DNA from: Streptomyces sp. TN58
GTDB taxonomy: Bacteria > Actinomycetota > Actinomycetes > Streptomycetales > Streptomycetaceae
Length of the DNA stretch: 64,000 bases
Assembly: GCF_001941845.1 (NCBI RefSeq)
Contig: NZ_CP018870.1
Coordinates: 6,424,001-6,488,000, forward strand
Reading direction: 5' to 3'
Part shown: one piece after another, positions 4,976 through 56,376 of the stretch
Layout of the letters: every line of letters begins with the position of its first letter
How positions within the stretch are numbered: position 1 is the stretch's first letter
Position numbers and translations under genes: made by a program
The notes under the pieces: model-generated
Seen by the model: only the letters and a program-made list of their open reading frames with translations
Database searches by the model: none
What the model was told of the DNA's origin: nothing

Positions 4976-6664
4976 TCAGACCGGCAGGGACCAGGCCTGG
5001 TCGACCCGGTGCTCGCCGCAGGGGGTCAGCCGCAGCCGCTCGGCCGGGGCGTCGGGAGTGGCGGCCCGGGCGGGCGCGGTCAGGCACATGCCGCTCGCCT
5101 CCTCCACGAGGGACCCGTCACGCCGGTGGTGCCAGCTCTGGCCGGGCTGCCCGCTGTGCCGCGGCGCGCAGTCGGCCAGCTCCACGGCGCCGTTCTCGCC
5201 CGCCGACAGGCATTCGCCGGCCAGCCGCAGGCGGTTGTCGTCACCCAGGAACCACCGCTGGTCGGGGGCCCCGGTGCAGCCCGCCATCACGACCGCGCCG
5301 ACACCGCTGGTGTTGGCCCCGTCCGCGCACCGGACGCCGTCACCGACGATCTGCCCGGTCGGAACGGCCTCGGCGCAACCGCGCGGGCTGAGCCGCCACA
5401 CGGCGGTGTCATGGCCGGCCAGCTTCCCGGTCAGCGCGTCGGAGACCTCGGTGCGCGCGCCGCTCCACAGGTCCTGCGCATCGGCCGTGCACGCGTTCAG
5501 GCCGATCTCGTCCAGCGGCACCCTGATGTCGCGGGTGTTCGACGAGCGGTTGAGGACGGCCACCGCCCGGTCGCCGTTCGCGAGCGGGCGGACCAGGATC
5601 TCGAAGGTGGCGTTGGAGGAGACCACGGCGCCCTGGCGGCCCATCGGGTCCTGGTCCAGGGCGATCAGCCGGGTGTTGCCGAGGGCGTCGAGGCCCGCCG
5701 GGGTCAGCTTCGAGACGTCGGAGGACAGGATGAAGGGGGCCGCCATCATGGCCCAGAGGGCCACCTGGCTGCGGCTCTCGGCCGCCGTGAGGCCGGGGGC
5801 GCCCGCGATCAGGAAGTCGGGGTCGTTCCAGTTGCCGGGGCCCGCGTACCGGCCGAGCCACCGGTTGTAGCCGTAGTTGCCCATCACCGAACTCCACCGC
5901 GAGGTGGCGGGCGAGGCGGGGTTGTGGACCTTGATGTCCTTGCCCTCGCGCCACAGCTGGCCGGTCTCGCCGACCCAGCCGAGCACCTTGTGCCAGTCGG
6001 AGCCGCCCCACTCGCCCTGCTGGAAGTAGGCGGGGGCGGAGGCCGACAGGACCATGTCCCGGCCGCTCTCGCGCAGGGCCTTCGCGACGGCGTTGTAGGC
6101 GTCCCGGTAGGCCTGCTCCTTCGTGCGGCCCTCCGGCACCCACAGGTTGCAGCCGTCCATCTTGACGTAGTCGACCTTCCAGGACGCGAACTGCCGTGCG
6201 TCCCGGGCGTAGTGGTCCGGCCCGCCGCCCTCGGGGGCGCCGCTGCCGGGGTACTTCTCGCACGTGAGGGAACCGGCGTCCTGGTAGATGCCGAACTTAA
6301 GGCCCTTGGCGTGCAGGTACTCGCCCAGCCAGGCCATGCCGTGCGGGAACTTCGCGGTGTCGACCACCAGGTTGCCCCGCGCGTCCCGGCTCCTGGTCAT
6401 CCAGCAGTCGTCCACGGTCACCGTGTCGTAGCCCTTGGCGGCGAGCCCCGTCGAGACGAGGGCGTCGGCGTTGGCGACCACCTTGGCCTCGTCGATGTCG
6501 CACATGTAGTGCGCCCAGTTGTTCCAGCCCATGGGAGGGGTGAGCGCGAGCGGGGTGTCCGAGGTCGCCCGGGGCTCGGCCGCCACCGGGGCGGGGGAGA
6601 GCGCGAGGGCGAACAGGGCGGCCGCGGTCAGGCAGGGGAGCGTTGCGCGCAGGCGAGGCGGCAC
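4976..6664 (-). CDS. Secreted alpha-galactosidase, GH27 with C-terminal ricin-type lectin domain
   Basis: A 562-residue glycosidase. The GTG start at 6662-6664 is chosen because AAGGAG lies 5 bases upstream; a longer frame begins before the promoter. Residues 1-29 are a signal peptide ending in A-P-V-A-A. The GH27 barrel opens with TPPMGWNNW. The nucleophile is the Asp of YVKMDGC (about residue 170) and the acid/base is the Asp of WNDPDFL (about 281). A beta-sandwich follows, then from about residue 440 a cysteine-rich region with Q-R-W and Q-A-W repeats typical of a ricin B carbohydrate-binding module. First gene of the operon with GH89. Confidence 0.93.
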   Translation of the reverse strand: MPPRLRATLPCLTAAALFALALSPAPVAAEPRATSDTPLALTPPMGWNNWAHYMCDIDEAKVVANADALVSTGLAAKGYDTVTVDDCWMTRSRDARGNLVVDTAKFPHGMAWLGEYLHAKGLKFGIYQDAGSLTCEKYPGSGAPEGGGPDHYARDARQFASWKVDYVKMDGCNLWVPEGRTKEQAYRDAYNAVAKALRESGRDMVLSASAPAYFQQGEWGGSDWHKVLGWVGETGQLWREGKDIKVHNPASPATSRWSSVMGNYGYNRWLGRYAGPGNWNDPDFLIAGAPGLTAAESRSQVALWAMMAAPFILSSDVSKLTPAGLDALGNTRLIALDQDPMGRQGAVVSSNATFEILVRPLANGDRAVAVLNRSSNTRDIRVPLDEIGLNACTADAQDLWSGARTEVSDALTGKLAGHDTAVWRLSPRGCAEAVPTGQIVGDGVRCADGANTSGVGAVVMAGCTGAPDQRWFLGDDNRLRLAGECLSAGENGAVELADCAPRHSGQPGQSWHHRRDGSLVEEASGMCLTAPARAATPDAPAERLRLTPCGEHRVDQAWSLPV

Positions 6665-6698
6665 GGGGTCTCCTTGACGTGGGGGCAGTCGTGCGCCC

Positions 6699-6727
6699 AG
6701 TGCAGCGACGCCGCTACGCAGTGTCAA
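6699..6727 (-). promoter_or_regulatory. Candidate promoter of the GH27-GH89 operon
   Basis: On the minus strand a perfect -35 hexamer TTGACA (6722-6727) is followed after 17 bases by TGCACT (6699-6704), a weak -10. The predicted transcript would start near 6692, about 25 bases before the GTG, leaving room for the AAGGAG site. The -35 and the spacing are convincing, the -10 less so. Confidence 0.5.
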
Positions 6728-6792
6728 CGCAAGTCGCTGGTTGTCGGCTGATGACCAGCAATATGGCTGCAATCGATGTCACACGAAAGAGG

Positions 6793-6819
6793 AGATACGG
6801 CGTATGATACGATGTATCT
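6793..6819 (+). promoter_or_regulatory. 27-bp dyad operator with embedded -10 box before the TetR gene
   Basis: AGATAC (6793-6798) pairs with GTATCT (6814-6819), and CGTAT (6801-6805) pairs with ATACG (6807-6811), both around base 6806. Eleven of 13 half-site positions match. A consensus-like -10 hexamer TATGAT lies at 6803-6808 inside the dyad, so a bound dimer would block RNA polymerase. The TetR-family gene starts right after it, which points to autoregulation. Confidence 0.75.
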
Positions 6820-6820
6820 T

Positions 6821-7462
6821 ATGCCGAGGAGTTCCGACGCCCTGGACCGCGCCACCCCCGGGGCCATCGCCGCCGCCGCGCTGCGGATCCTCGACGAGGA
6901 GGGGCCGCAGCGCCTCAGCTTCCGCACCCTCGCCGACCGGCTCGGCGTCTCCCACGCCACCGTCCAGCGCCGCTGCGCGGACCTCGCCGGACTGCTCGAC
7001 CTGTGCACCGAGCACCTGGCCGCACAGCTCCCCGAGATCCCCGCCGGAACGGACTGGGCCGAGGCCACCGAGCAGCGCTTCCGCGCGCTGTACCTGCTCC
7101 TCACCGCCCACCCCGGCCTGCTCGTGCTGCGCGGCGGCCGGCCCTGGCTCGGGCGGCAGCTGCTGGCCCGCCTCGTCGAGCCCGCCCTCGCCGACAGCGT
7201 CGCCGCGGGGATGACCGTCACCGAGGCGATCAGCGCGTACCGCCGCATGTACCTGCTCACCCTGGGCAGCGCCGCCTTCGTCGACCACCGGGATCCGGCT
7301 GCCGCCACCTCCGCCTCGCGCGCCGCCCTGGCCGCACTCGACCCCGAGGAGTTCCCCGTGCTCTCCGGCGGACTGCCCGACGTACTGCCGGCCCTCACGG
7401 ACCACGAGGTGTACTACGGCGCCCTGCGCCAGCTGATCCAGGCCGCCCGGCCCGCCACCTGA
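6821..7462 (+). CDS. TetR-family transcriptional regulator
   Basis: About 213 residues. The N-terminal helix-turn-helix reads I-A-A-A-A-L-R-I-L-D-E-E-G then F-R-T-L-A-D-R-L-G-V-S-H-A-T-V-Q-R-R, as in TetR proteins. The rest is the helical ligand/dimer domain, of unknown ligand. The start is uncertain: ATG 6821 sits 13 bases after an embedded TATGAT, implying a leaderless or nearly leaderless mRNA; ATG 6812 and ATG 6776 are in frame. The GAGGAG at 6789-6794 is too far from 6812 or 6821 to be a normal ribosome site. The dehydratase gene follows after 14 bases and is the likely co-regulated partner. Confidence 0.85.
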   Translation: MPRSSDALDRATPGAIAAAALRILDEEGPQRLSFRTLADRLGVSHATVQRRCADLAGLLDLCTEHLAAQLPEIPAGTDWAEATEQRFRALYLLLTAHPGLLVLRGGRPWLGRQLLARLVEPALADSVAAGMTVTEAISAYRRMYLLTLGSAAFVDHRDPAAATSASRAALAALDPEEFPVLSGGLPDVLPALTDHEVYYGALRQLIQAARPAT

Positions 7463-38787: not shown

Positions 38788-40287
38788 TCAGTGCTCGCAG
38801 AGGGAGAACTCCCTCTCGTAGAGCTGCTCGTTGTGCTCGTCGACGAAGAACTTGCGTTCCTGCATGAGCTGTTCCCGGTACTCGCGGGCCTGCTCCAGCG
38901 TCATGGTCGAGGTCTCGGACCAGGGCTGCTGCGGCGGCACGTCGGATGTCGAGACGATCCTCCGCGAGGGGTCGACCAGGAAGAAGGCCAGGATCTTGCG
39001 GTGTCCCGGGCGCGTGGGGTCGGCGAGCCGGAACGAGTCGACGCGGTGCTGCAGGATGTTCGGGAACGCCAGGCACCGGCCCTCCGGGGTCGCGGCCGAT
39101 CCCAGCACCTGGTTCAGCGCGTCCTCGTTCTCCAGGCCGTAGACCTCGCGCACGCCGTCGTCGTCGTTCTGTTCGTAGTCCGGGTCGTCGAGCGCCGCCC
39201 GGAAGCCCAGCCGGCTCTCGGTGATGTTCTCGCTGTCCCAGTAGTAGAGCGCGGTGGAGACGATCCGCTCGTTCACCATCCCCTCGACGTGCCAGGAACC
39301 GCCCGCGTACTCGGGCTTGTCCGGGGTGAGCTGGATGGTGGCGAGCTTGACGATGACCTGGAGGCCGCGCCCGCGCAGGTCGACCCGGGCGGCCTCCGCG
39401 GGCGGTTCGGGCGCGGTGAAGACCGGGGCGTCCGGGATGACCGGCCGGCGGTTCTCCGACCACTCCTCGTAGGCGTCCTCCCACTGGCTGCGGGCTTCGT
39501 TGTACGCGGCGTCGTCACTGTAGGAGGTCCGGCGCGGGTACTCCGGCTTCGAGTCGTACCAGCAGTAGGGGTTGACCTCGATCCGCAGCGGCCGCGGCTG
39601 GCGCAGATCCGTCAGCACGTTCTCCAGCAGCGGGCGCATCCGGGCGAACACGTCGGGGAGGACCGCGAGGAGTCCGGCGTGGGTCTCGGGGTGGACGTTG
39701 TTGACGTACGAACGGAAGGCCACCTCGCCGTCGTCACTGACGTCGACGTCCGTGGGCAGCCACTGGAACCTCTCCGAGAACTCGTACTTCGACCAGCGGT
39801 CCGTCGGGTTCTGCCAGGCGCTCTCGGGACCCCCGCTCACCTCCCGCACCAGACAGAACAGCGAGGGATGGACCAGGTCCAACACCTGCCCGTCCGAACC
39901 GGGATGCCAGTCCTTGTCCTCCTCGGGGACCTCCTCCAGCACCCGGACGGCCTCCCGCAGCCGGGACCTGAGCGTCTCGTCGACCAGCGTGTCCGACTGC
40001 CACACCCCGTCGACGCCCGACACCTCGACTCCGGTCTGCGGGTCCCGCAGGGCGGCGTAGTGGCGCAGTTCGTCCAGCACGTAGCGCACCTGCGCCTCGC
40101 TGAGGCCCTGGTCGACCGCCTCCCGCGTCCACCGGGCGACGATGTCGGCGTCGTCCATCTTGTCGAACCACCGCGGCTTCGCCCGGATGAGCGCGCTGCA
40201 CTGCATCATCTGGAGTTCGCGCAGGATCCGGGGTTTGGCGAACGGTATGGAACGTGACGTGTTGAAGGGGAGCGGGAAGGCGGACAT
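38788..40287 (-). CDS. DUF4246 protein, probable 2-oxoglutarate/Fe(II)-type fold
   Basis: 499 residues from ATG 40287. The family is known mostly from fungi and some actinomycetes and has no established activity. The core carries the pattern of a 2-oxoglutarate oxygenase: H333-x-E335 in G-G-S-W-H-V-E-G, a distal H414 in I-L-Q-H-R-V, and R430 in G-H-R-K-I-L-A-F-F-L-V. No signal peptide. It converges on the GH88-like gene with only 13 bases between the stops. Confidence 0.88.
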   Translation of the reverse strand: MSAFPLPFNTSRSIPFAKPRILRELQMMQCSALIRAKPRWFDKMDDADIVARWTREAVDQGLSEAQVRYVLDELRHYAALRDPQTGVEVSGVDGVWQSDTLVDETLRSRLREAVRVLEEVPEEDKDWHPGSDGQVLDLVHPSLFCLVREVSGGPESAWQNPTDRWSKYEFSERFQWLPTDVDVSDDGEVAFRSYVNNVHPETHAGLLAVLPDVFARMRPLLENVLTDLRQPRPLRIEVNPYCWYDSKPEYPRRTSYSDDAAYNEARSQWEDAYEEWSENRRPVIPDAPVFTAPEPPAEAARVDLRGRGLQVIVKLATIQLTPDKPEYAGGSWHVEGMVNERIVSTALYYWDSENITESRLGFRAALDDPDYEQNDDDGVREVYGLENEDALNQVLGSAATPEGRCLAFPNILQHRVDSFRLADPTRPGHRKILAFFLVDPSRRIVSTSDVPPQQPWSETSTMTLEQAREYREQLMQERKFFVDEHNEQLYEREFSLCEH

Positions 40288-40374
40288 GCCGGTCAATTCT
40301 CTCGGACCTCCGAGTCGGTGTGCGGTGGCCGGAAGGATACTTCAGCGCACTGACACCGCCGCGCGGGCGGCCCT

Positions 40375-46828: not shown

Positions 46829-48674
46829 CCCCTCCAGATGCGGCGGTTCACGCCTGGCAGCGCGAGCCCCGGCGGGTCGCCCACGGTAGCTGTAGCCGCG
46901 GCGAAGCACGGTCCGCTGGTCCGACCCGGTGGTGAGCCGGCCCACCGCGTCGAAAGTCTGGTGCAGCGCTGTGCTGTCGCCGATGCGCCGAGTCAGTTCA
47001 CGGCCGGCTGCGTCACGCTCGAAGCTCAGCGTTCGGCCCGAGGCCGTGATCTTGCTGCAGTGGCCGCCCTCGTCATAGGCCCAGCGGGTCAGCGCCCCGG
47101 CGGGGGTTGTCAGGCCGGCCAGCCGGCTCAGCTCGTCGTACGTGTAGCGGACCGTACGGCCATCGACATGCTCCTCGACAAGCCGACCGTGCCGGTCGCG
47201 GATGCGGAGCAGCCTGGTGCCGTCGGAGGAGACCGCCGCTGCAAGCAGGTCGAAGACATCAAACTCGAACGTCGCGGTACCGGCGGGGGAGGTTTTGCGG
47301 ACGATCCGCCGAGCACGTCGCGCTCGTAAGCGATCTCCTCGCCCAGCCCGTTCACACGTGAGCGCAGGCGACCGGCCGGGTCGTAGGAGTAGGTCAGCGT
47401 CAGGCCGTCGAAGTCGGTCTCTGAGATCAGCCGCCCCGCCGCATCGTACGCGTACTCCCAGATCAGGCCCTGGGGGTTGCGTACGCCCGTGAGTCGCAGC
47501 AACGCATCGTAGGTGTACTCGTGGCGTACGCCGTCAGGCCCGGTCCGAGCGGCGAGGAGGTCGAAGTGGGTGTACTCGAAGCGGGTCACCCCGCCTGCTG
47601 GATCGGTGAAGGCGGTGCAGTTGCCCTCGCCGTCGTACGTCCATGCCGACTCGGCGCCGTCCGGGTCCACCCGGCGGGCAGGACGTCCCTCGGGGGTCCA
47701 CTCCATGGTCGTCACCCCGCCGAGCGGGTCAGTCACGCGCACGGGGCGACCGAACGCGTCCCGCTCGAACCGTGAGGTGGCGCCTAGAGCGTCCGTGATC
47801 GTGACCGGCAGGCCAGCCGCGTCGGTGGTGAAGCGTGTGACGGCGCCCAGCGGGTTGGTCACCGTGACGACATGACCGCGATCGTCATAGGCGAAGGTGG
47901 TGACGGCACCTGCCGAAGTGGTGAGCGACGTGCGGTTGCCGCGCTCATCGAAGGTCTGGCGGATGACCGTGCCGTCCGCGTTGGTCACTCTTGCGGGCAG
48001 GCCCGGTTCGTCGTACTGGGCCTGCCCGCTATGCGGCCGTCGGGTCGGATTGAGCGGGTAATCCTTCCCGCCTCGTCGTATTCCTGAAGCGAGGTGGCGC
48101 CCAGTGCGTCGGTACGGCTGAGCACGCGTCCGGCGCTGTCGTACTGGTAGCGGGGGACAGCGCCGAGCGGGTCGATCTCGGCAACGACCCGGCACCGCTC
48201 GTCGATCAGGTAGCGGCGGGTGTGCCCGTCGGCGGTGGTGACCGCCGTGACGCGCTCGCCCGTCGCCGGGTCGTGCTCGTCGTACGTGAGCGTGAGGGCG
48301 AGGTGTCCGTCGGCGCCGCCTTCCGCGATGCAGCGGTCCTGGTCGTCGTAGGTGTTTTCGTAGCGGCTGCCATTGGTGTCGATCCACGACGTGATCCGGC
48401 CGCGGTCGTCGTACGCCAGCCGCAGGGGCCGACCGGAGGAGCTGGTGACCTCAGTCAGGTTCCCGTCGGTGTAGCCATACGCGAGGACGCGCGGGCCGCC
48501 GGTCAGATGGAGAGCGGTAATGCGGCCCCCGGGTTTGCCGTTGCGGTCCTCCAGCTGGGCGATCGCCGCCAGGCCGTCCCCCTCGCCGTCCCAGCCCGCC
48601 GCCGGGGAGAACCGTAGGGAGGGGGCGGGCGCGTGCGCCGGCTGGTGTTTGGGGTGCCCATGACCGGTGCCCAC
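46481..48674 (-). pseudogene. RHS-repeat protein, truncated and frameshifted
   Basis: RHS/YD repeats are clear in three consecutive minus-strand frames: 48674 to about 48020 (Y-D-D-R-G-R-I-T-S-W), about 48030 to 47310 (A-Y-D-A-A-G-R-L-I-S), and 47310 to 46481 (D-E-G-G-H, F-E-R-D-A-A-G-R-E-L). Two frameshifts, one near 48020-48030 and one near 47310, separate them. The N-terminal transport/PAAR part is missing (the sequence begins mid-repeat) and so is the conserved core and pre-toxin cleavage region, since repeats jump straight to an unrelated tail near 46830. It is a remnant of a polymorphic toxin gene. Confidence 0.9.
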
Positions 48675-48803
48675 CCCGCCGCGCCCCCGGCCCGCCGCCC
48701 CGTGCGCGCCCCGTGAACCGTTTGGCGGAGATTTGGGGAAACGATGGCGGCCCTCTCCAGGATGGACACGTCCGCATCACCCACTGATGTGAAGGAGATT
48801 CCC

Positions 48804-48884
48804 ATGAAGAAGATCCAGGTCCGCAAGGCCGGTCCGGTCCGTCTGACCTCCTCGGCGTGTGACGTCTACACGAACCCCAGCTGA
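48804..48884 (+). CDS. 26-residue peptide, candidate RiPP precursor
   Basis: A 26-codon ORF with an excellent ribosome site (AAGGAG, 6 bases before ATG). It starts MKKIQ with five basic residues in the first 15 and ends SACDVYTNPS. It is not in the list of longer ORFs. It has no signal peptide. It sits directly upstream of a PqqD-like/HExxH membrane peptidase gene, across a hairpin that could reduce read-through, a layout common in ribosomally made modified peptides where the precursor is made in excess. The S-S-A-C-D-V-Y end is the obvious core; the modification is unknown. Confidence 0.7.
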   Translation: MKKIQVRKAGPVRLTSSACDVYTNPS

Positions 48885-48922
48885 TCGCTCAGTTGAGTCC
48901 CGGCACCTGATCGGCCGGGGTC

Positions 48923-48983
48923 GGCGCCGTCGTGCCCAGGACCGCCCGAGGCGACTCGGGCCGCCCGTCGGCACGACGGTGCC
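48923..48983 (+). terminator. Attenuator-like hairpin after the peptide gene
   Basis: GGCGCCGTCGTGCC (48923-48936) pairs with GGCACGACGGTGCC (48970-48983) at 13 of 14 positions. An inner stem CCCGAG-GCGA-CTCGGG lies at 48945-48960. It lies between the peptide and the metallopeptidase gene, with about 57 bases to the next start. Confidence 0.65.
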
Positions 48984-49040
48984 TCCCGGGCGGCGTGCCC
49001 CGCCCGCAGCCGGTCCGGACCGCAAGCCGAGGGAGGCTCC

Positions 49041-50261
49041 ATGCCGGAGCACGGCATCCGCAATGAGGCAGACACGCCCCTGCCGTTCCACCCGCTGGTC
49101 TACCTGGAGGACGGCGAAGAGGTCACCATCGGGCGGCCCGACACGGACTCCTACGGGATCTTCCCGGTCGACGGCGCCCACCTCGTGCGCCGCCTCGCGG
49201 CCGGCGCCACCCCGTCGCAGGCCGCCGACTGGTACTCCGCCGAGTACGGCGAACAGGTCGACATCGACGACATCATCGGCGCCCTACGCGAACTCGGCTT
49301 CGTCCGCGAGGAGGGCGAGGAGCCCGCGCAGACGGGCCCGGTGCGCTGGCAGCGACTCGGCCGCGCCCTGTTCTCCCCGCCCGCCTGGGTCTGCTACGGG
49401 CTGATCACCGCCTGGGCGCTTTGGCGCATGATCCGCTCCCCGGACCTCGTACCGGCCGCGGAAGACATGCTGTTCAGCGAGTACTACGCCGTCATCAGCC
49501 TGGTCATGCTGGTCGCCGCGGTACCCCTGATCGCCATCCACGAGGCCTTCCACGCCTTGGCCGCCCGGCGTCTGGGCATCGGTTCCAAGACCAGGCTGTC
49601 GCACCGCTTCTACTTCCTCGTGGTCGAAACGGCCCTGGACGGGCTGGTCGCCGTGGAACGCCGCAAGCGCTACCTGCCGATCGTCGCCGGGATGGTCGTC
49701 GACATCGTCCTCGTCTCTCTCCTCGTCACCGTCGCCGACGTCGCCCGCGGCCCCGGCGGTGCCGAAACCACCGCCAGCCGCGTCTGCCTCGCGGTGGCCT
49801 TCGCCGCCGTGCTGCGGGTACTGTGGCAGTTCTTCCTCTACCTGCGCACCGACGTATACGTGCTGATCACCACCATGCTCGGCTGCGTGGACCTGCACAC
49901 CACGTCCGTACGCCTGCTGCGCAACCGCTTCCTGCGACTGCGCGGGCGCACCGAGGGGCTGGCGGACGAATCCCTCTGGCACCCCGTCGACCGCCGGGCC
50001 GCCCGCTGGTACTCCTGGCTGATCGTGGCCGGCTACACCTTCAGTCTCAGCACCTTCCTGCTGGCCCTCGCCCCCGTCTTCGTGGAGATGGTCTCCGGAG
50101 CCGTCAGCCGCTTCGGCGGCGAGGGCTCCAGCTGGGTCGAGCTGCTGGATTCCTCGGCCTTCCTCATCATGGCCTTCTGGCAGAGCGCCCTCACGATCTG
50201 GATCGCCGCCCGGGAGCGTCTGCGCGGCCGCACCTCCCGCACCCACCACGTCATCGGCTGA
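49041..50261 (+). CDS. PqqD-like domain fused to an M50-like HExxH membrane metallopeptidase
   Basis: 406 residues; GGAGG lies 4 bases before the ATG. Residues about 10-92 look like a PqqD/RRE peptide-binding domain (S-Y-G-I-F-P-V-D-G-A-H-L-V-R-R-L, then D-D-I-I-G-A-L-R-E-L-G-F-V). The rest has about six to eight membrane segments with the zinc motif H167-E-A-F-H171 inside A-I-H-E-A-F-H-A-L, and L-D-G-L as a possible third ligand region, as in the YydH-type 'peptide zinc metalloprotease'. Role inferred: bind the 26-residue precursor through the RRE-like domain and cut it at the membrane. Confidence 0.87.
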   Translation: MPEHGIRNEADTPLPFHPLVYLEDGEEVTIGRPDTDSYGIFPVDGAHLVRRLAAGATPSQAADWYSAEYGEQVDIDDIIGALRELGFVREEGEEPAQTGPVRWQRLGRALFSPPAWVCYGLITAWALWRMIRSPDLVPAAEDMLFSEYYAVISLVMLVAAVPLIAIHEAFHALAARRLGIGSKTRLSHRFYFLVVETALDGLVAVERRKRYLPIVAGMVVDIVLVSLLVTVADVARGPGGAETTASRVCLAVAFAAVLRVLWQFFLYLRTDVYVLITTMLGCVDLHTTSVRLLRNRFLRLRGRTEGLADESLWHPVDRRAARWYSWLIVAGYTFSLSTFLLALAPVFVEMVSGAVSRFGGEGSSWVELLDSSAFLIMAFWQSALTIWIAARERLRGRTSRTHHVIG

Positions 50262-50512
50262 CGGGCGTCCCCGTGGGCTCGGCCCCTCCACCTCGACGAG
50301 CCACGCTCGCCCGGGCGTTCGCTTCGCGTCGGTGACCACCCGCTTCGCCAGGACCTTCGGCCGCGATCCTCGACCGGTCCGCCTGCCACGCTACCGGCCG
50401 CCACTGACAACGCCGCTTTGCCCAGCAGGCGAACCGGCTCCCTCTGTCCCGCAACGCGGGAGCTCCGTATCCTCCCCGGCCCGAAGGCCGCGGTATCCAC
50501 GAAGGAGTCCTG

Positions 50513-52654
50513 ATGACCGGCCACTACTGGATCGCGGCGCCCCTGCGCCGCGAACGTGACCGTCTGCGGGCCGGACTCGGCCTGCCCGCCCCCCTGGCCG
50601 TGGTCGACGCGCACCGTCGGCTGCGCGGACCTTACTCCGCGGCGGGCGCCCTGCTGCGCCAGGTCGCCCCCGAGGCGCTGCGCCGCATGCCCGAACTGGC
50701 CGCCCGGCACTACATCGAGCTCCAGGAGAGCACCCCGGAACTGGCGCCCCTCGTACCGCAGAGGATCCGCGCCCTGGAGAAGATGGCCGATGCCCCCGGC
50801 GAGGCCAGCCGCTACCCGGCCCGGCTGCACTCGCTGCGCGTCTCGCACGGGATCGTGGACTTCCTCCTAGCCGCCCTCCCCGGATCCGGGGACGGCCCGC
50901 GCACCCTCGTCGTGGAGAACGTGCAGCACGCCGACGTCACCGACCACGAGTTCCTCGCCGCCGCCCTGCGCCGGATCCCCGCCGAGCTTCTGACCCTGGT
51001 CGTCGCCACCGACACCGCGGAGCTCGGAGATCCGCCGGGCATGGTCTCCGTGTCCCTGCCCGCGGAACTCGCCGTGCGCACCACCCGCGTCCACCACCCC
51101 GGGGCCCCCGCGGGCGCCGACCCCGACGGGCCGACCCCCGACGGTGCCGGGTTCGGCAGCTTGGCCGAGGCCGCCGCCCGGTACGTTGCCGGCGACTGCA
51201 TCAGCGACGAGCCCCCACTGCGCGCCGCGTACGAGGCCCTCACCGGACCCGAGCGCGCTGCCCTGCACGACCGCCGGGCCGAGGAGGTCGCCGGCCGCGC
51301 CGAGGAGGAGCCCTCGCTCCGGCTGGGCACCCTTCCCTACCACCTGCTGCGCGGCAGCGACGGCGACGGCGCCGGACTCGACGCCCTGCGTTGGGCCCAG
51401 CTCCGCTGCAAGTACCTGGGCCTCTATCACGCGGCGGCCGAGATGGGCGAGGAGGGCCGCCACCGTACGGGCCCCGACGTCCGGCCCGAACTGTGGTGGC
51501 CTTTCACCCGCGAGACGGGCGTGTGCCTGGCCGCCGCCGGACGGCCGGAGGAGTCCGCCGCCGTCCAGGAGGAGGCGCGCTCGCAGACCACCATGCCCAA
51601 ACACCACATGAGCCTCGCCTACGAGACGGGCATGCTGTACGCCCGCCACTTCCCGCCGGAGCTGCGCGACGAGCGCAGGGCCCGCGCGTACGTCAACCAG
51701 GCCATCGCGATCTCGGACCTGCTGCCGGACCTGAAGGAACGCGCCTTCTTCTCCGTGTTCAACCGCAACGGCCTCGCCCTGGTCGAGGTCCGCGCCGGCC
51801 GCCCCGACGAGGCCCTGCGGCTGCTGGACGAGGGCATCGAGCGGCTCGACCGAGAGCTCGGCATCGGCGAGCGGACCTGGCACCGCGTCGGCCTGCGCTA
51901 CAACCGCGCCCAGGTCAACGGCATGAGCGGCCGGCTGGAGGACGCCCTGGAGGACTACGCCTCCATCATGGACCTGGACCACGACTTCGCCGACCACTAC
52001 TTCAACCGCGGAAGCATGCTCCGCCGGCTCGGCCGCATCGAGGAGGCCATCGCCGACTACGAGCGGGCCATCACTCTGGAATCGCCCTTCCCCGAGGTGC
52101 ACTACAACCGCGGCGAGGCCCGGCTCGAACTCGGCGACCTCGACGGCGCGCTGGCCGACTTCGACCGGGCCCTCGAACTGGAGCCGGGCAACCTGGAGGC
52201 CCTCCTCGCCCGCGCGGGCCTGCTGGCCGACCAGGGCGAGGCCAAAGCGGCCCTGGCCGATGTCGAGGCCGGGCTGCTGGTCGATGCCGAGCACCCCCAT
52301 CTGCTCTGCCTCCAGGGCCGGTTGTGGGGCGAGGAGGGCCGTACGGCCGAGGCCCGCGACTCCCTCGACGCGGCCCTGCGCCACGATCCGGAGCTGGCCG
52401 AGGCATGGGCGATCAAGGGCGAACTCGACTATGTGGAAGGCGACCTGACCGCCGCACTGGCCGATTTCAACCGAGCGGTGGAGCTGGAGGCCCGGCCCGA
52501 GTTCCGGTTCAACCGGGGTGTGGTTCACGAGGCGGCGGGCAGCCTGGTCCAGGCGGTGGCCGACTTCGACGCGGTCCTCGCCGTCACCGACGACGAAGAG
52601 GCGCGCAGCCGCCGGGAGACCTGCCTGCGCGCAGCCGAGCGGGCGCACCTGTAG
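50513..52654 (+). CDS. TPR-repeat protein with a degenerate ATPase-like N-terminal domain
   Basis: 713 residues; AAGGAG precedes the ATG. The first 330 residues resemble a STAND/AAA module whose P-loop has decayed (G-P-Y-S-A-A-G-A-L-L in place of G-x4-G-K-S/T) and whose Walker B reads L-V-V-E-N-V-Q-H-A-D. From about residue 395 there are at least eight tetratricopeptide repeats (for example F-N-R-G-S-M-L-R-R-L-G-R-I-E-E-A-I-A-D-Y-E-R-A). No signal peptide. Follows the metallopeptidase after 251 bases; likely a scaffold for the peptide system, by position only. Confidence 0.85.
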   Translation: MTGHYWIAAPLRRERDRLRAGLGLPAPLAVVDAHRRLRGPYSAAGALLRQVAPEALRRMPELAARHYIELQESTPELAPLVPQRIRALEKMADAPGEASRYPARLHSLRVSHGIVDFLLAALPGSGDGPRTLVVENVQHADVTDHEFLAAALRRIPAELLTLVVATDTAELGDPPGMVSVSLPAELAVRTTRVHHPGAPAGADPDGPTPDGAGFGSLAEAAARYVAGDCISDEPPLRAAYEALTGPERAALHDRRAEEVAGRAEEEPSLRLGTLPYHLLRGSDGDGAGLDALRWAQLRCKYLGLYHAAAEMGEEGRHRTGPDVRPELWWPFTRETGVCLAAAGRPEESAAVQEEARSQTTMPKHHMSLAYETGMLYARHFPPELRDERRARAYVNQAIAISDLLPDLKERAFFSVFNRNGLALVEVRAGRPDEALRLLDEGIERLDRELGIGERTWHRVGLRYNRAQVNGMSGRLEDALEDYASIMDLDHDFADHYFNRGSMLRRLGRIEEAIADYERAITLESPFPEVHYNRGEARLELGDLDGALADFDRALELEPGNLEALLARAGLLADQGEAKAALADVEAGLLVDAEHPHLLCLQGRLWGEEGRTAEARDSLDAALRHDPELAEAWAIKGELDYVEGDLTAALADFNRAVELEARPEFRFNRGVVHEAAGSLVQAVADFDAVLAVTDDEEARSRRETCLRAAERAHL

Positions 52655-52662
52655 GGGCCGGG

Positions 52663-53214
52663 ATGGACCTTCGTCAGCAGGGGAAGCAGCAGGAGCGCCG
52701 GCGGGAGATCGAGCGGGAGCGCGGGACCGGCGGGGCCGTGTCCGGGGCCGCGTTCACCGAGGCCATGTCGCGGCTGGTCTCGGGGGTGGCGGTGGTCTCC
52801 GCCCGGAGGGGTGACGGCCGGCCCTCGGGGCTGCTCGTCTCCTCCGTCTGCTCGTACAGCGCGGCCCCGCCGTCGGTGCTCGTCGCGCTGGCGCGCACCT
52901 CCCGGACCTGCCGGGAGATCACGGCGGGGCCGGACGCGTACTTCGGAGTCCACCTGCTGGCCCGCAGCCACGCGGCGCTGGCGAAGACCTTCGCGGGCAG
53001 CTCCCGGGACAAGTTCGCCGACGTGCTCTGGGACTGGGACGGGACGGTGCCGCGGCTGTCGGGCGTCCCGGTGTACGCGAAGTGCCGTGCGGGGGCGGTG
53101 CTCCCGCACGGCGACCACGTGATCGTGGTGGGCGAGGTGGTCGGCTGCGCGGTGGCGGAGGACGACCCGCTCGTGTACTTCCGGCGGCGGCTCGACTGGA
53201 GCCTCGGCGGCTGA
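52663..53214 (+). CDS. Flavin reductase family protein (FMN-binding split barrel)
   Basis: 183 residues from ATG 52663, 8 bases after the TPR gene, so co-transcribed. The domain begins A-F-T-E-A-M-S-R-L-V-S-G-V-A-V-V-S and holds S-G-L-L-V-S-S-V-C-S-Y-S, the FMN-binding strand, and F-G-V-H-L-L. The first 25 residues are highly charged (Q-Q-G-K-Q-Q-E-R-R-R-E-I-E). Such proteins supply reduced flavin to a partner monooxygenase; none is encoded beside it, so a distant partner or a role in the peptide locus is open. Confidence 0.88.
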   Translation: MDLRQQGKQQERRREIERERGTGGAVSGAAFTEAMSRLVSGVAVVSARRGDGRPSGLLVSSVCSYSAAPPSVLVALARTSRTCREITAGPDAYFGVHLLARSHAALAKTFAGSSRDKFADVLWDWDGTVPRLSGVPVYAKCRAGAVLPHGDHVIVVGEVVGCAVAEDDPLVYFRRRLDWSLGG

Positions 53215-53376: not shown

Positions 53377-54333
53377 TCAGCCACCCAGCGCAGCGGGGTG
53401 GAGTGCGCCCGCCGGGCGGCAGCCGTCGTGCCGGGTGTTGTCGGGCCGGGCCCCGCTGAGCAGGGCCTGCTGGGCCGCGCGCAGGCCCGGTCCCGGTTCG
53501 ATTCCGGTGTCCTCGACCACGGCGCGCCGGGCCCGGGTGTAGGCGTGCAGGGCCTCGGCGCGGCGGCCCGCGGCGGCCAGGGCGAGCATCAGCTGCTCGT
53601 GGAAGTCCTCGCGCAGCGGGTGGCGCGCGCACAGCTCCTCCAGCTCACCGACAACCTCGCGGGCCCAGCCGCTGCAGATGTCGGCGCCGATCCGGTCGTG
53701 GACGAGGGCGAGCCGTTCCTCTTCGAGCCGGACGGTGTAGTGCGCGGGCAGGCAGGCCGGTCCGAGGTCCTCGAAGGGCGTGCCCCGCCAGAGGGCCAGG
53801 GCCCGGTGAAACGACTCTGCCGCGGTGGTGCAGTGGCCCGCGGCCCGCAGTTCCCGGCCGCGCGCGGCCAGCGTGCGGAACCGGTCGAGGTCCAGTTCCC
53901 CCGGCTGTACGCGCAGCAGGTAGCCGTTGCCGGAGGTGAGCAGCAGCGGGTGCCTGCGGGGGTCGCCGCCCCCGCGGCTGTGCTCAGGGGCGAGCACACG
54001 CCGCAGCCCCGACACGTACATCTGCACGGTCGCCACGGCTGAGCGCGGAGGCCGGTCGTCCCACAACTCGCCGATCAGGGAGCAGATCGGAAAGCGGCGG
54101 TTGGCGTGCAGCAGCAGCAGCGTCAGCAGGGCGCGCCGCTTCAGGGAGCTGGGCGTGCACGACACCCCGCCCCGGCGGACTTCCAGGGGCCCCAAGATCC
54201 GGTACGTCGGCCCGTCGGCCGGCCCGCCCCCGCCGGTCGGCTCTGGGGCGGGCCCGGGACAACGGGGTAAGTCGGGGTCCGCCGGAGGGCCGTGGACGGG
54301 ATCTGACGAGGATCTTTCGGTTCTGGCCAGCAC
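53377..54333 (-). CDS. SARP-family transcriptional regulator (AfsR/DnrI type, short form)
   Basis: 318 residues. After a 40-residue proline/glycine N-terminus, the winged-helix DNA-binding domain runs L-G-P-L-E-V-R-R-G-G with S-S-L-K-R-R-A-L-L-T-L-L-L-L. It is followed by the bacterial transcriptional activation domain (R-L-E-E-E-R-L-A-L-V-H-D-R, H-P-L-R-E-D-F-H-E-Q-L-M-L-A-L). No ATPase or TPR part. SARPs activate secondary-metabolite clusters; the target here is unknown. It lies between the peptide locus and the M28-like gene. Confidence 0.9.
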   Translation of the reverse strand: MLARTERSSSDPVHGPPADPDLPRCPGPAPEPTGGGGPADGPTYRILGPLEVRRGGVSCTPSSLKRRALLTLLLLHANRRFPICSLIGELWDDRPPRSAVATVQMYVSGLRRVLAPEHSRGGGDPRRHPLLLTSGNGYLLRVQPGELDLDRFRTLAARGRELRAAGHCTTAAESFHRALALWRGTPFEDLGPACLPAHYTVRLEEERLALVHDRIGADICSGWAREVVGELEELCARHPLREDFHEQLMLALAAAGRRAEALHAYTRARRAVVEDTGIEPGPGLRAAQQALLSGARPDNTRHDGCRPAGALHPAALGG

Positions 54334-54702
54334 TGGTCTGCCACCCCCGCGCTACCGGCGCCCTCGGGCGCACTGTCCTGTCGGCACGCGGTGGGGCTCA
54401 CCGGCGCTCACGACAATGGATACGGGATCACGCGAGAGGGTGTCAGGGGCACGAACCAGCCAAATCCCAAATAAAATAGATGAACTGCGAACCGGCAGCC
54501 GTCTCGGCCGTATGCCCGCCGCATCTCGGCCAATAATCGGGGCGCCCGGCCCGGCTCGGATCTGCTCCTTGGCAGGGGCCCGCCGCAGGGTTAGCGTGCC
54601 TCGATCTCCTCCGACACGTACGTGCTTCCCGATCGTCGACCGACCGCCGACCACGGCCCTGCCGACCGGTCAGTTCGACCTGCCGTGAGAGGGCAACCCG
54701 CC
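54334..54702. other. AT-richer intergenic region between SARP and M28-like genes
   Basis: No gene is seen. An A/T patch around 54460-54485 (AAATCCCAAATAAAATAG) stands out strongly against the surrounding 72% GC and probably holds the promoter of one or both divergent genes. No clear direct heptamer repeats for SARP binding were found by eye. Confidence 0.5.
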
Positions 54703-56376
54703 ATGTCCGCACGTCGTACCGCCGCGGCGACCGCCACCCTGGCCGCCGCCGCACTCGTCTCCCCGCTGCTCCTCGCCGGCCCCGCCGCCGCGGGCGACGA
54801 AGACCGGGGCCGGGCCGCCGCCCGCGGCGCCGCCCTGGCGGCGCAACTCGTCCGGGAGTCCACGGCCAAGGACGCCCTCCGGCACCTGCGGGCGTTCCAG
54901 TCGGCCGCGGACTACAACGGCGGCAACAGGGTGGCGAGTTCGAAGGGCCACGAGGCCTCGGCTGCATACGTGGAGGGGGTGCTGCGCAACGCCGGCTACG
55001 GGACCTCCCGCCAGGAGTTCGGCTTCGTCTACACCGAGGACCTCGCCGAGTCCCTCACCGTCGACTCGCCCACCCCGCGCGAGGTCACCGTCCAGCTCAT
55101 GGCGTTCACCGCCCGCAGCCCCGAGGGCGGGGTCACCGGGGAGCTGGCCGTGGTCCCCGTCGACGCCGACAACACCCACGGCTGCGAGCCGGGCGACTTC
55201 GCGGCGGGCGCGTTCACCGGCAGGATCGCCCTGGTCAAGCGTGGGGGCTGCTCCTTCGCCGTCAAGCAGGGCAATGCCCACGCGGCGGGCGCGCTCGGCG
55301 CGATCGTCTACAACAACACCCCCGGCAAGATCAACGGGACCATCGGGGACTCCTCCCTCGCCCGCATCCCTACCGGCGGGATCAGCCAGGAGGACGGCGC
55401 GGCGCTGACCGCGGAGGCCGCCACCGGGCCGGTGACGGTCACCCTCGACATCCACGAACTGCGCGAGAACCGCCGCAGCTTCAACGTGGTGGCGGAGACC
55501 CGCGGCGGGGGCGCCGCCAACACGGTCCTCCTCGGCTCCTACCTCGACTCGCAGCACGGCACCCCCGGCATCAACGGCAACGGCTCCGGCTCGGCCGGGC
55601 TCCTCCAGGTCGCGTTGAAACTGGCCAAGTCGCAGGAGAAGGTGGGCAACAAGGTGCGGTTCGCCTGGTGGTCGGCGCAGGAGTTCGGCGTCGCGGGCTC
55701 GCATGCGTACCTCTCCGCCCTGACGCCGGAGCAACGCGCGCAGATCCGGCTCTACCTGAACTTCGAGACGATCGCCTCGCCGAACGGCGCGTTCTTCGTC
55801 AGCGACGGGGACGACTCTGACCGCGTCGGCGCGGGCCCCGGCCCGGAGGGCTCCGCCCAGCTGGAGAAGGGCATCACCGACTTCCTCGACGCGAAGGGCG
55901 TCCCGCACGAGGGCACCGACTTCATCGGCCTGTCGGACTACGCGCCCTTCCTCGCGGCGGGTATCCCCTCGGGAGGCACCTTCACCGGCTCCGACGGCAT
56001 CAAGACCGAGGCCCAGGCGGCCAGGTTCGGCGGCCAGGCGGGCACCGCGTACGACGTGAACCACCACAACCCCGGCGACGACCTCGCCAACCTCCACATG
56101 CGTTCCTTCGACGTCAACATCGACGTCATCGCCGACGCGGCCGGCCGCTACGCGCACGATCTCGGGGCCTTGGCGGCAACTGACCGCCCGATGGCGGAGG
56201 GCCCCACCCCCGCGGTGCCGCCCGCGGCGTCCCGTGGGCCCTGCCGTGCCGTGCCGCACGGCAGGGCTCAGGAGGGGTGCCATCCGGTGGGGAGGACGGT
56301 GGCGTCGCCTCAGCCGGTGGTCCTGGTCGGTGAGCACGTCCCGGACGAGGCGGCGCAGGCCTCGGGGGCGTTGTGA
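54703..56376 (+). CDS. M28-family aminopeptidase homologue, catalytically degenerate
   Basis: 557 residues, signal peptide about 1-31, a PA-like insert domain (about 130-260), then the M28 catalytic domain. Compared with Streptomyces griseus aminopeptidase, with exact spacing kept: zinc ligand His85 is Y280 (G-S-Y-L-D-S), bridging Asp97 is G292 (G-I-N-G-N-G-S-G-S-A), catalytic Glu131 is Q326 (W-S-A-Q-E-F), Asp160 is E355 (N-F-E-T-I-A). Only Glu132 (E327) and His247 (about H455) remain. The last 65 residues, after A-H-D-L-G-A-L-A, run on past where the family ends into sequence antisense to another remnant, so the original stop was probably lost. Probably an inactive binding protein. Confidence 0.85.
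   Translation: MSARRTAAATATLAAAALVSPLLLAGPAAAGDEDRGRAAARGAALAAQLVRESTAKDALRHLRAFQSAADYNGGNRVASSKGHEASAAYVEGVLRNAGYGTSRQEFGFVYTEDLAESLTVDSPTPREVTVQLMAFTARSPEGGVTGELAVVPVDADNTHGCEPGDFAAGAFTGRIALVKRGGCSFAVKQGNAHAAGALGAIVYNNTPGKINGTIGDSSLARIPTGGISQEDGAALTAEAATGPVTVTLDIHELRENRRSFNVVAETRGGGAANTVLLGSYLDSQHGTPGINGNGSGSAGLLQVALKLAKSQEKVGNKVRFAWWSAQEFGVAGSHAYLSALTPEQRAQIRLYLNFETIASPNGAFFVSDGDDSDRVGAGPGPEGSAQLEKGITDFLDAKGVPHEGTDFIGLSDYAPFLAAGIPSGGTFTGSDGIKTEAQAARFGGQAGTAYDVNHHNPGDDLANLHMRSFDVNIDVIADAAGRYAHDLGALAATDRPMAEGPTPAVPPAASRGPCRAVPHGRAQEGCHPVGRTVASPQPVVLVGEHVPDEAAQASGAL

Follow-up and report, generated by a model that had tools for sequence, protein, structure and literature searches.

A conserved mini-precursor beside an RRE-protease fusion and a TPR protein: what looks like an undescribed route to small modified peptides in Streptomyces and related soil bacteria

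What is a peptide of only 26 residues for, when it lies upstream of a membrane metalloprotease, a tetratricopeptide repeat (TPR) protein and a flavin reductase? The question is raised by a 64,000-nucleotide stretch of Streptomyces sp. TN58 (contig NZ_CP018870.1, positions 6,424,001 to 6,488,000; the genome is one contig of 7.6 Mb), hereafter the window, in which a sequence-only reading had singled out a candidate peptide system. The gene set that it described is indeed there, and this cassette of Streptomyces and related soil bacteria looks like an undescribed route to small modified peptides. We consider it probable that it encodes a pathway of the type that makes ribosomally synthesised and post-translationally modified peptides (RiPPs), to which both the fusion of a RiPP recognition element (RRE) to a protease and the split of the peptide into leader and core point. 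The features concerned are these.

48792..48797, + strand: ribosome-binding site AAGGAG of the precursor, read from the sequence, six bases ahead of the start
48804..48884, + strand: open reading frame (26 codons) of the 26-residue precursor peptide, backed by homologues and by the ratio of nonsynonymous to synonymous change (pN/pS)
48923..48983, + strand: long GC-rich hairpin between the precursor and protease genes, from RNA fold prediction
49041..50261, + strand: RRE-M50 fusion, a 406-residue HExxH membrane protein (alignment, AlphaFold model, fold matches)
50513..52654, + strand: TPR protein of 713 residues (Pfam, alignment, model)
52663..53214, + strand: flavin reductase-like protein (PF01613, Pfam E 2.5e-31)
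53377..54333, - strand: SARP/BTAD regulator (PF03704, E 4.5e-39)

Relatives of the cassette were collected from several sets of genomes, and the resulting tallies are lower bounds (few candidates were scored per genome, and the window's genome was counted where drawn). The protease was found in 15 loci by genome scan, in 13 of 101 genomes of the window's genus and in 17 of 394 of its class (E <= 1e-20), and a profile of the TPR protein's N-terminus in 19/394 genomes of the class, 20/392 of the genus and 55/120 of the family Streptosporangiaceae; a draw of 246 across the phylum gave two positives, G190, already in the set, and the genome of the window itself. Removal of duplicates (L065 = L032, L163 = L027, L183 = L033, L184 = L036), of the window's own repeats (L001, L041, L088) and of short loci for which a longer locus covers the same place left 46 loci with both protease and TPR protein, a set from which remote M50 loci lacking a TPR gene were left out and in which L177 and L178 (identical precursor, two genomes) both count. 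L016 is cut upstream, before the peptide, leaving 45 readable loci. In L176, the TPR match runs over two overlapping frames (5354-7454), possibly a frameshifted copy, which was kept unaltered in the counts.

The peptide proves to be a constant companion of the protease, since a precursor lies upstream of it in 45/45 readable loci, so that the pairing proposed by the sequence-only reading stands as far as it goes (the peptide's most constant partner is another protein, as described below). In the window, the precursor (48804-48884) encodes MKKIQVRKAGPVRLTSSACDVYTNPS, in which residues 1-14 (48804-48845) form a conserved leader and residues 15-26 (48846-48881) a variable core with Cys19 and Tyr22; we infer that the border falls after residue 14. 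Among 37 distinct precursors from 44 loci, K2, R7, G10 and L14 are invariant, positions 6, 12 and 13 are limited to I/V, V/I and R/K, and K3, I4 and K8 are kept in 35, 34 and 35, respectively (the precursors of L038, L040, L171, L172 and L176 were trimmed for register at an inner residue before KK, their reading frames starting further upstream). The amino-acid sequence of the precursor is under purifying selection, with a pN/pS of 0.25 over codons 2-17 and of 0.61 over codons 18-25 in 14 precursors, a set without L015, L035, L037 and L039. The conservation and the leader-type organisation anticipated by the sequence-only reading are thus both borne out; the conserved A-C-x-x-Y end for which it proposed to look is not, DVYTNPS belonging to the tails, which are hypervariable, and the leader being the conserved part. 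A hairpin is predicted after the precursor's stop codon in 23/23 loci folded (z <= -2.0 in 19/23), with stems that differ in sequence, and no Rfam family matches it.

What the cores share is not a sequence but a pair of residues. Their tails range from ACDVYTNPS in the window to AALYSPEGC, ACYYLCGDAA, GTSVYDWWC, NANSLYAPFSCWPF and MACYCYGCCCCGGRAAI in relatives, and 36/37 distinct cores contain both Cys and Tyr; a rule that every core has the two is broken by L194, which has neither. A maximum-likelihood tree built from the 46 proteases, in which support is weak for the deepest branchings of the outer rows, places the window in a supported clade of 26 rows (100/98), in every one of which Cys stands three residues before Tyr. 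Rows with Tyr before Cys surround this clade, and Cys before Tyr appears again outside a supported group of 35 rows (100/96), in L171/L172 and L176. This placement indicates more than one change of order, with the pair itself retained. Cys and Tyr are likely to act jointly, a covalent link being only one way in which they might do so.

The deviant locus L194 lies on a plasmid of Streptomyces sp. NBC_01450 (NZ_CP109482.1), where the protease-TPR cassette sits between IS701, IS4 and IS5 transposase genes. Its precursor frame has 57 residues and gives a 38th, looser precursor that keeps only R7 of K2/R7/G10/L14; the record annotates the cassette's proteins as "hypothetical protein" and "tetratricopeptide repeat protein".

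In the protease, residues 12-92 (49074-49316) adopt an RRE fold in the AlphaFold model, matching 6jx3/5v1u and nearest to lasso peptide B1 proteins, which bind leaders, and the remainder matches the site-2 proteases 8vjm/3b4r, so that the RRE fused to a membrane protease in the sequence-only reading holds up, with a site-2-protease-like part. An HExxH motif in a membrane helix (49539-49553) and a distal TDxY (49848-49859), in which Asp271 is the presumed third zinc ligand, are invariant in an alignment of 27 sequences, as in the M50/site-2 family. Profile matches are weak (TfuB1 E 0.072, TbiB1 E 0.19, RseP E 0.52); Pfam gives the protein only a sub-threshold PF02163 (E 0.047), names the TPR, flavin reductase and SARP/BTAD proteins and has no match for the precursor, and NCBIfam holds no fitting model for either peptide or protease. 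The Pfam scan took in 19 window translations, the precursor among them, and none of these contains the domain of a familiar RiPP synthetase, as had been claimed beforehand.

Remoter RRE-M50 proteins have no TPR gene in the flanks examined, and their scanned neighbours include ThiF-family proteins in 6 of 7 loci (none came from L076). A pattern search found peptides of 18-28 residues with a similar leader, such as MKIEVRKVEAVKATQFMT, in 6/20 of these loci, and the others may still have one. The loci L017 and L072-L076, several of them adjoining ThiF-family proteins, carry 18-28-residue peptides such as MEIKVRKVEDVKATGLQV, apparently another mini-precursor family.

The TPR protein, which the sequence-only reading had cast as a scaffold, is scaffold-like in its architecture. 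Residues ~284-713 form a TPR superhelix, and the first 240 show a strand-helix pattern like that of a P-loop domain, with a Walker-B-like stretch near ADxTDxE. At the expected Walker A site stands HRRLRGPY (50612-50635), invariant in 19 sequences; across 16 N-termini including three remoter rows, only R38, G39 and P40 of it are invariant, and still no GxxxxGK appears. The Walker A loop of STAND/AAA NTPases is thus missing (the domain being assigned by inspection), and our reading, from sequence and secondary structure, is that of a dead STAND/P-loop-like domain. In a fold search with the full model the matches are filled by TPR repeats, and the N-terminal profile gave a single chance-level row against the PDB (E 0.58). 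All 18 matching Pfam families are of TPR type, and none is a DNA-binding domain.

It is this protein, rather than the protease, that turns out to be the peptide's most constant partner, which amends the pairing mentioned above. In the window's genus, all 20 of 20 TPR loci also have the protease. The TPR profile also matches copies in Streptosporangiaceae that have no RRE-M50 gene, several of these genomes holding two or three TPR loci each. Thirty-seven TPR-only loci were examined (the family search listed further TPR matches), and no relative of the protease, the flavin reductase, an old yellow enzyme (OYE)-type reductase or SARP was found in the DNA examined, which for 13/37 was 3.5-3.9 kb each with ~1.5 kb of flank. 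In 36/37, a sister peptide of 24-30 residues whose N-terminus is similar lies within ~200 bases upstream of the TPR gene: MKKIIVRKPGTTRLSGASSVIHKG with its variants, MKKIIVHKPGTAKLSAAASPRHLT or MKPVIVHKPGTVALTGAASPKHVG, plus outliers; three looks at L180 found none. Tyr occurs in 0/36 of these peptides, and a tail Cys in L117 and L118. The constant unit is therefore peptide plus TPR protein, and protease and flavoenzyme mark one branch.

Several features of the TPR-only loci deserve recording. The pairs in L103-L118, L126-L143, L179 and L195 have peptides ending in SVIHKG, SPRHLT or SPKHVG; a gene cluster is common to four loci (a GNAT acetyltransferase in L103, the sole one scanned with Pfam), an upstream 550-residue protein to six, and a PAD_porph-type deiminase to L109-type loci.

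The flavoenzyme is helpful to the system, not defining, since it is either swapped or not found. Counted by Pfam and profile search (Pfam confirmed L174 and L167; tblastn misses L174 and is weak in L167 and L175), the 46 loci have beside the TPR gene a flavin reductase in 24, an OYE-type enzyme in nine, neither in 13 and both in none. In L182 the flavin reductase is on the opposite strand. In the protease tree, L036 groups with all nine OYE-bearing loci, L182 branching at the base of this group, a pattern suggestive of the flavin reductase having been replaced. No flavoenzyme was found in L029 and L036, which keep the core of a sister locus; L016 and L071 extend 2 kb and 0.6 kb beyond the TPR gene, so that its absence there may reflect the contig end. 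The flavin reductase as an obligatory modifying enzyme is ruled out as universal (24/46 loci); the sequence-only reading had it possibly feed an oxidative change, of which an obligatory form is not supported, the enzyme being an add-on.

The pathway that we propose is based on conservation, gene order, predicted folds, the rule of Cys and Tyr and the interchange of flavoenzymes, from which we infer leader binding, cleavage, modification, release and regulation. A strong ribosome site of its own would drive translation of the precursor, probably to an excess, given the hairpin past its stop. Its leader (roughly the first 14 residues) would join the RRE of the metalloprotease as an additional strand and would be recognised by the TPR protein as well. 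The latter, with its P-loop-like domain devoid of an ATP-binding loop, would hold the peptide, and may be a scaffold or the partner of a separate catalyst. Alteration of the short core would follow, probably through its Tyr and its one or more Cys; where a flavoenzyme is present, be it the flavin reductase or, in relatives, an OYE-type enzyme, it would supply reducing flavin chemistry. Leader and core would finally be cut apart at the membrane by the site-2-protease-like part, and the SARP regulator may switch the cluster in the window's clade.

The chief competing reading is peptide signalling, given that peptides are bound by TPR superhelices and that TPR proteins serve as peptide receptors in RRNPP systems. 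The protease would free a short pheromone, the TPR protein would be its receptor and, in the window's clade, SARP would be the output, which is in keeping with the TPR protein being the peptide's most constant partner whether the protease is present or not. SARP is found in 26/46 protease-TPR loci, 25 of them in the window's clade (26 rows) and the other being L168, and might be a cluster regulator in that clade; however, it occurs in just 1/20 protease-TPR loci outside the clade and in 0/37 TPR-only loci (13 with the short flank given above), and this confinement makes signalling less likely. Nor does the TPR protein have a DNA-binding domain, and comparison of shared gene clusters, in which the widely shared neighbours are M50, TPR, SARP, flavin reductase, OYE and M28, revealed no exporter common to the neighbourhoods of relatives. 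Fixed Cys and Tyr in free order, together with flavoenzymes, suit a modified product better, and we regard signalling as improbable.

A toxin-antitoxin-like or conflict pair, made of the small peptide and a STAND-derived TPR protein to which one branch added protease and flavoenzyme, would fit the patchy spread, the multiple loci (two or three each) of several Streptosporangiaceae genomes, the one plasmid copy among transposases and the peptide gene that runs four bases into the TPR gene in L103, L108 and L116. It is nevertheless very unlikely, since a fixed leader with a free core is atypical of toxins, PADLOC matches are generic only (TPR, PrimPol and similar, E 2.1e-5 or worse), and the RRE fusion and the flavoenzymes would be left unexplained. 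An ordinary transcription attenuator, in which a functionless translated leader would control downstream genes via the recurrent long hairpin, is rejected, given codon selection and recurrence, and is scarcely credible with four residues (2, 7, 10 and 14) invariant in the 37 precursors, sister peptides keeping the N-terminal pattern in loci of other layout and no Rfam match.

Returning to the RiPP-type pathway, a bolder claim is possible, albeit rather doubtful, that is, that a superfamily of modified peptides, undescribed so far, is built in Actinomycetes around a 24-36-residue precursor and an ATPase-dead STAND-TPR protein, to which the window's branch added RRE-protease and reductase, with a Cys-Tyr-linked product that might be a redox or metal-binding group like other Tyr-derived peptide cofactors.

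Around the cassette, the 251-base gap between protease and TPR genes (50262-50512), in which no coding feature was recognised, is only ~10-20 bases in relatives such as L031, L032 and L033. Upstream, RHS/YD-repeat coding on the - strand (47128-48674) is divided between two frames that overlap (47128-48387 and 47985-48674) and looks like a broken RHS gene. Downstream lies a PA-domain M28 aminopeptidase (54622-56376, + strand), which accompanies the cassette only in a group of close Streptomyces relatives (6 loci); trimming of the peptide is one possible role. Further away lies a DUF4246 protein (38788-40296, - strand; PF14033 E 3e-121) with acyl-CoA dehydrogenase, CoA-transferase III and AMP-ligase genes as neighbours. 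In two Streptosporangium loci, L031 (2232-4283) and L032 (2085-4136), an nSTAND1-TPR gene (PF20703, scanned in L032) is upstream of the cassette.

If our reading is true, this would be a further RiPP class, whose members could be told by a leader pattern of 14 residues and which is built on an RRE joined to a site-2-type protease together with a dead-ATPase TPR protein that is nearly always with the peptide. Genome mining would gain a simple gene hook. The class raises the question of how so short a peptide gets modified without any familiar synthetase, and cores occurring in nature with Cys first or with Tyr first would allow the chemistry to be read.

How does the cassette compare with known systems? 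M50, metalloprotease, flavin and tetratricopeptide are not mentioned in the main text of RRE-Finder (PMC7470986), and that of decRiPPter (PMC7794033) has no occurrence of M50, tetratricopeptide or PqqD. Lasso peptide B1 proteins (TfuB1, 6jx3; TbiB1, 5v1u/5v1v) share the RRE, which is here fused to a membrane M50-like protease, and the 19 window translations contain neither a B2 protease nor a lasso cyclase/asparagine-synthetase-like C protein by Pfam, the shared neighbour clusters being other families. The daptide intramembrane metalloprotease NF041824 is of the same broad kind as the window protease, which does not match it at E <= 1; weak matches occur in two remoter relatives, L077 (E 5e-8, 32.5 bits against a cutoff of 300) and L074 (E 5.1e-6), and to our knowledge none of the cassette's widely shared neighbours is a daptide enzyme. 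The YydH/LiaK epipeptide metalloprotease NF058609 is an M50-type RiPP protease too, matched by the remote relative L077 (E 0.029) and not by the window protein at E <= 1, and no radical SAM enzyme is among the 19 translations, as would go with YydFGH. Nor is there a ThiF protein among them by Pfam; the resemblance to systems with ThiF/PaaA-like RiPP enzymes lies in the remoter RRE-M50 relatives, which adjoin ThiF-family proteins (6 of 7 loci), a PaaA-like N-terminus being hinted at, below the Pfam cut-off, in L077 and L018. The helix-turn-helix that precedes the repeats in RRNPP proteins is missing from the TPR protein, with its TPR-type Pfam families only. In the FxSxx-COOH RiPP system the precursor ends in FxSxx, as do 0/36 distinct cores here. 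Site-2 proteases have an LDG-type motif where the window protein has TDxY, and from SpoIVFB (8vjm) and the Methanocaldococcus jannaschii S2P (3b4r) it differs by this motif, by its N-terminal RRE and by a presumed substrate of 26 residues. What the cassette does share with RiPP systems in general is a leader-recognition domain, the RRE, together with a short ribosomal precursor with a conserved leader and a variable core.

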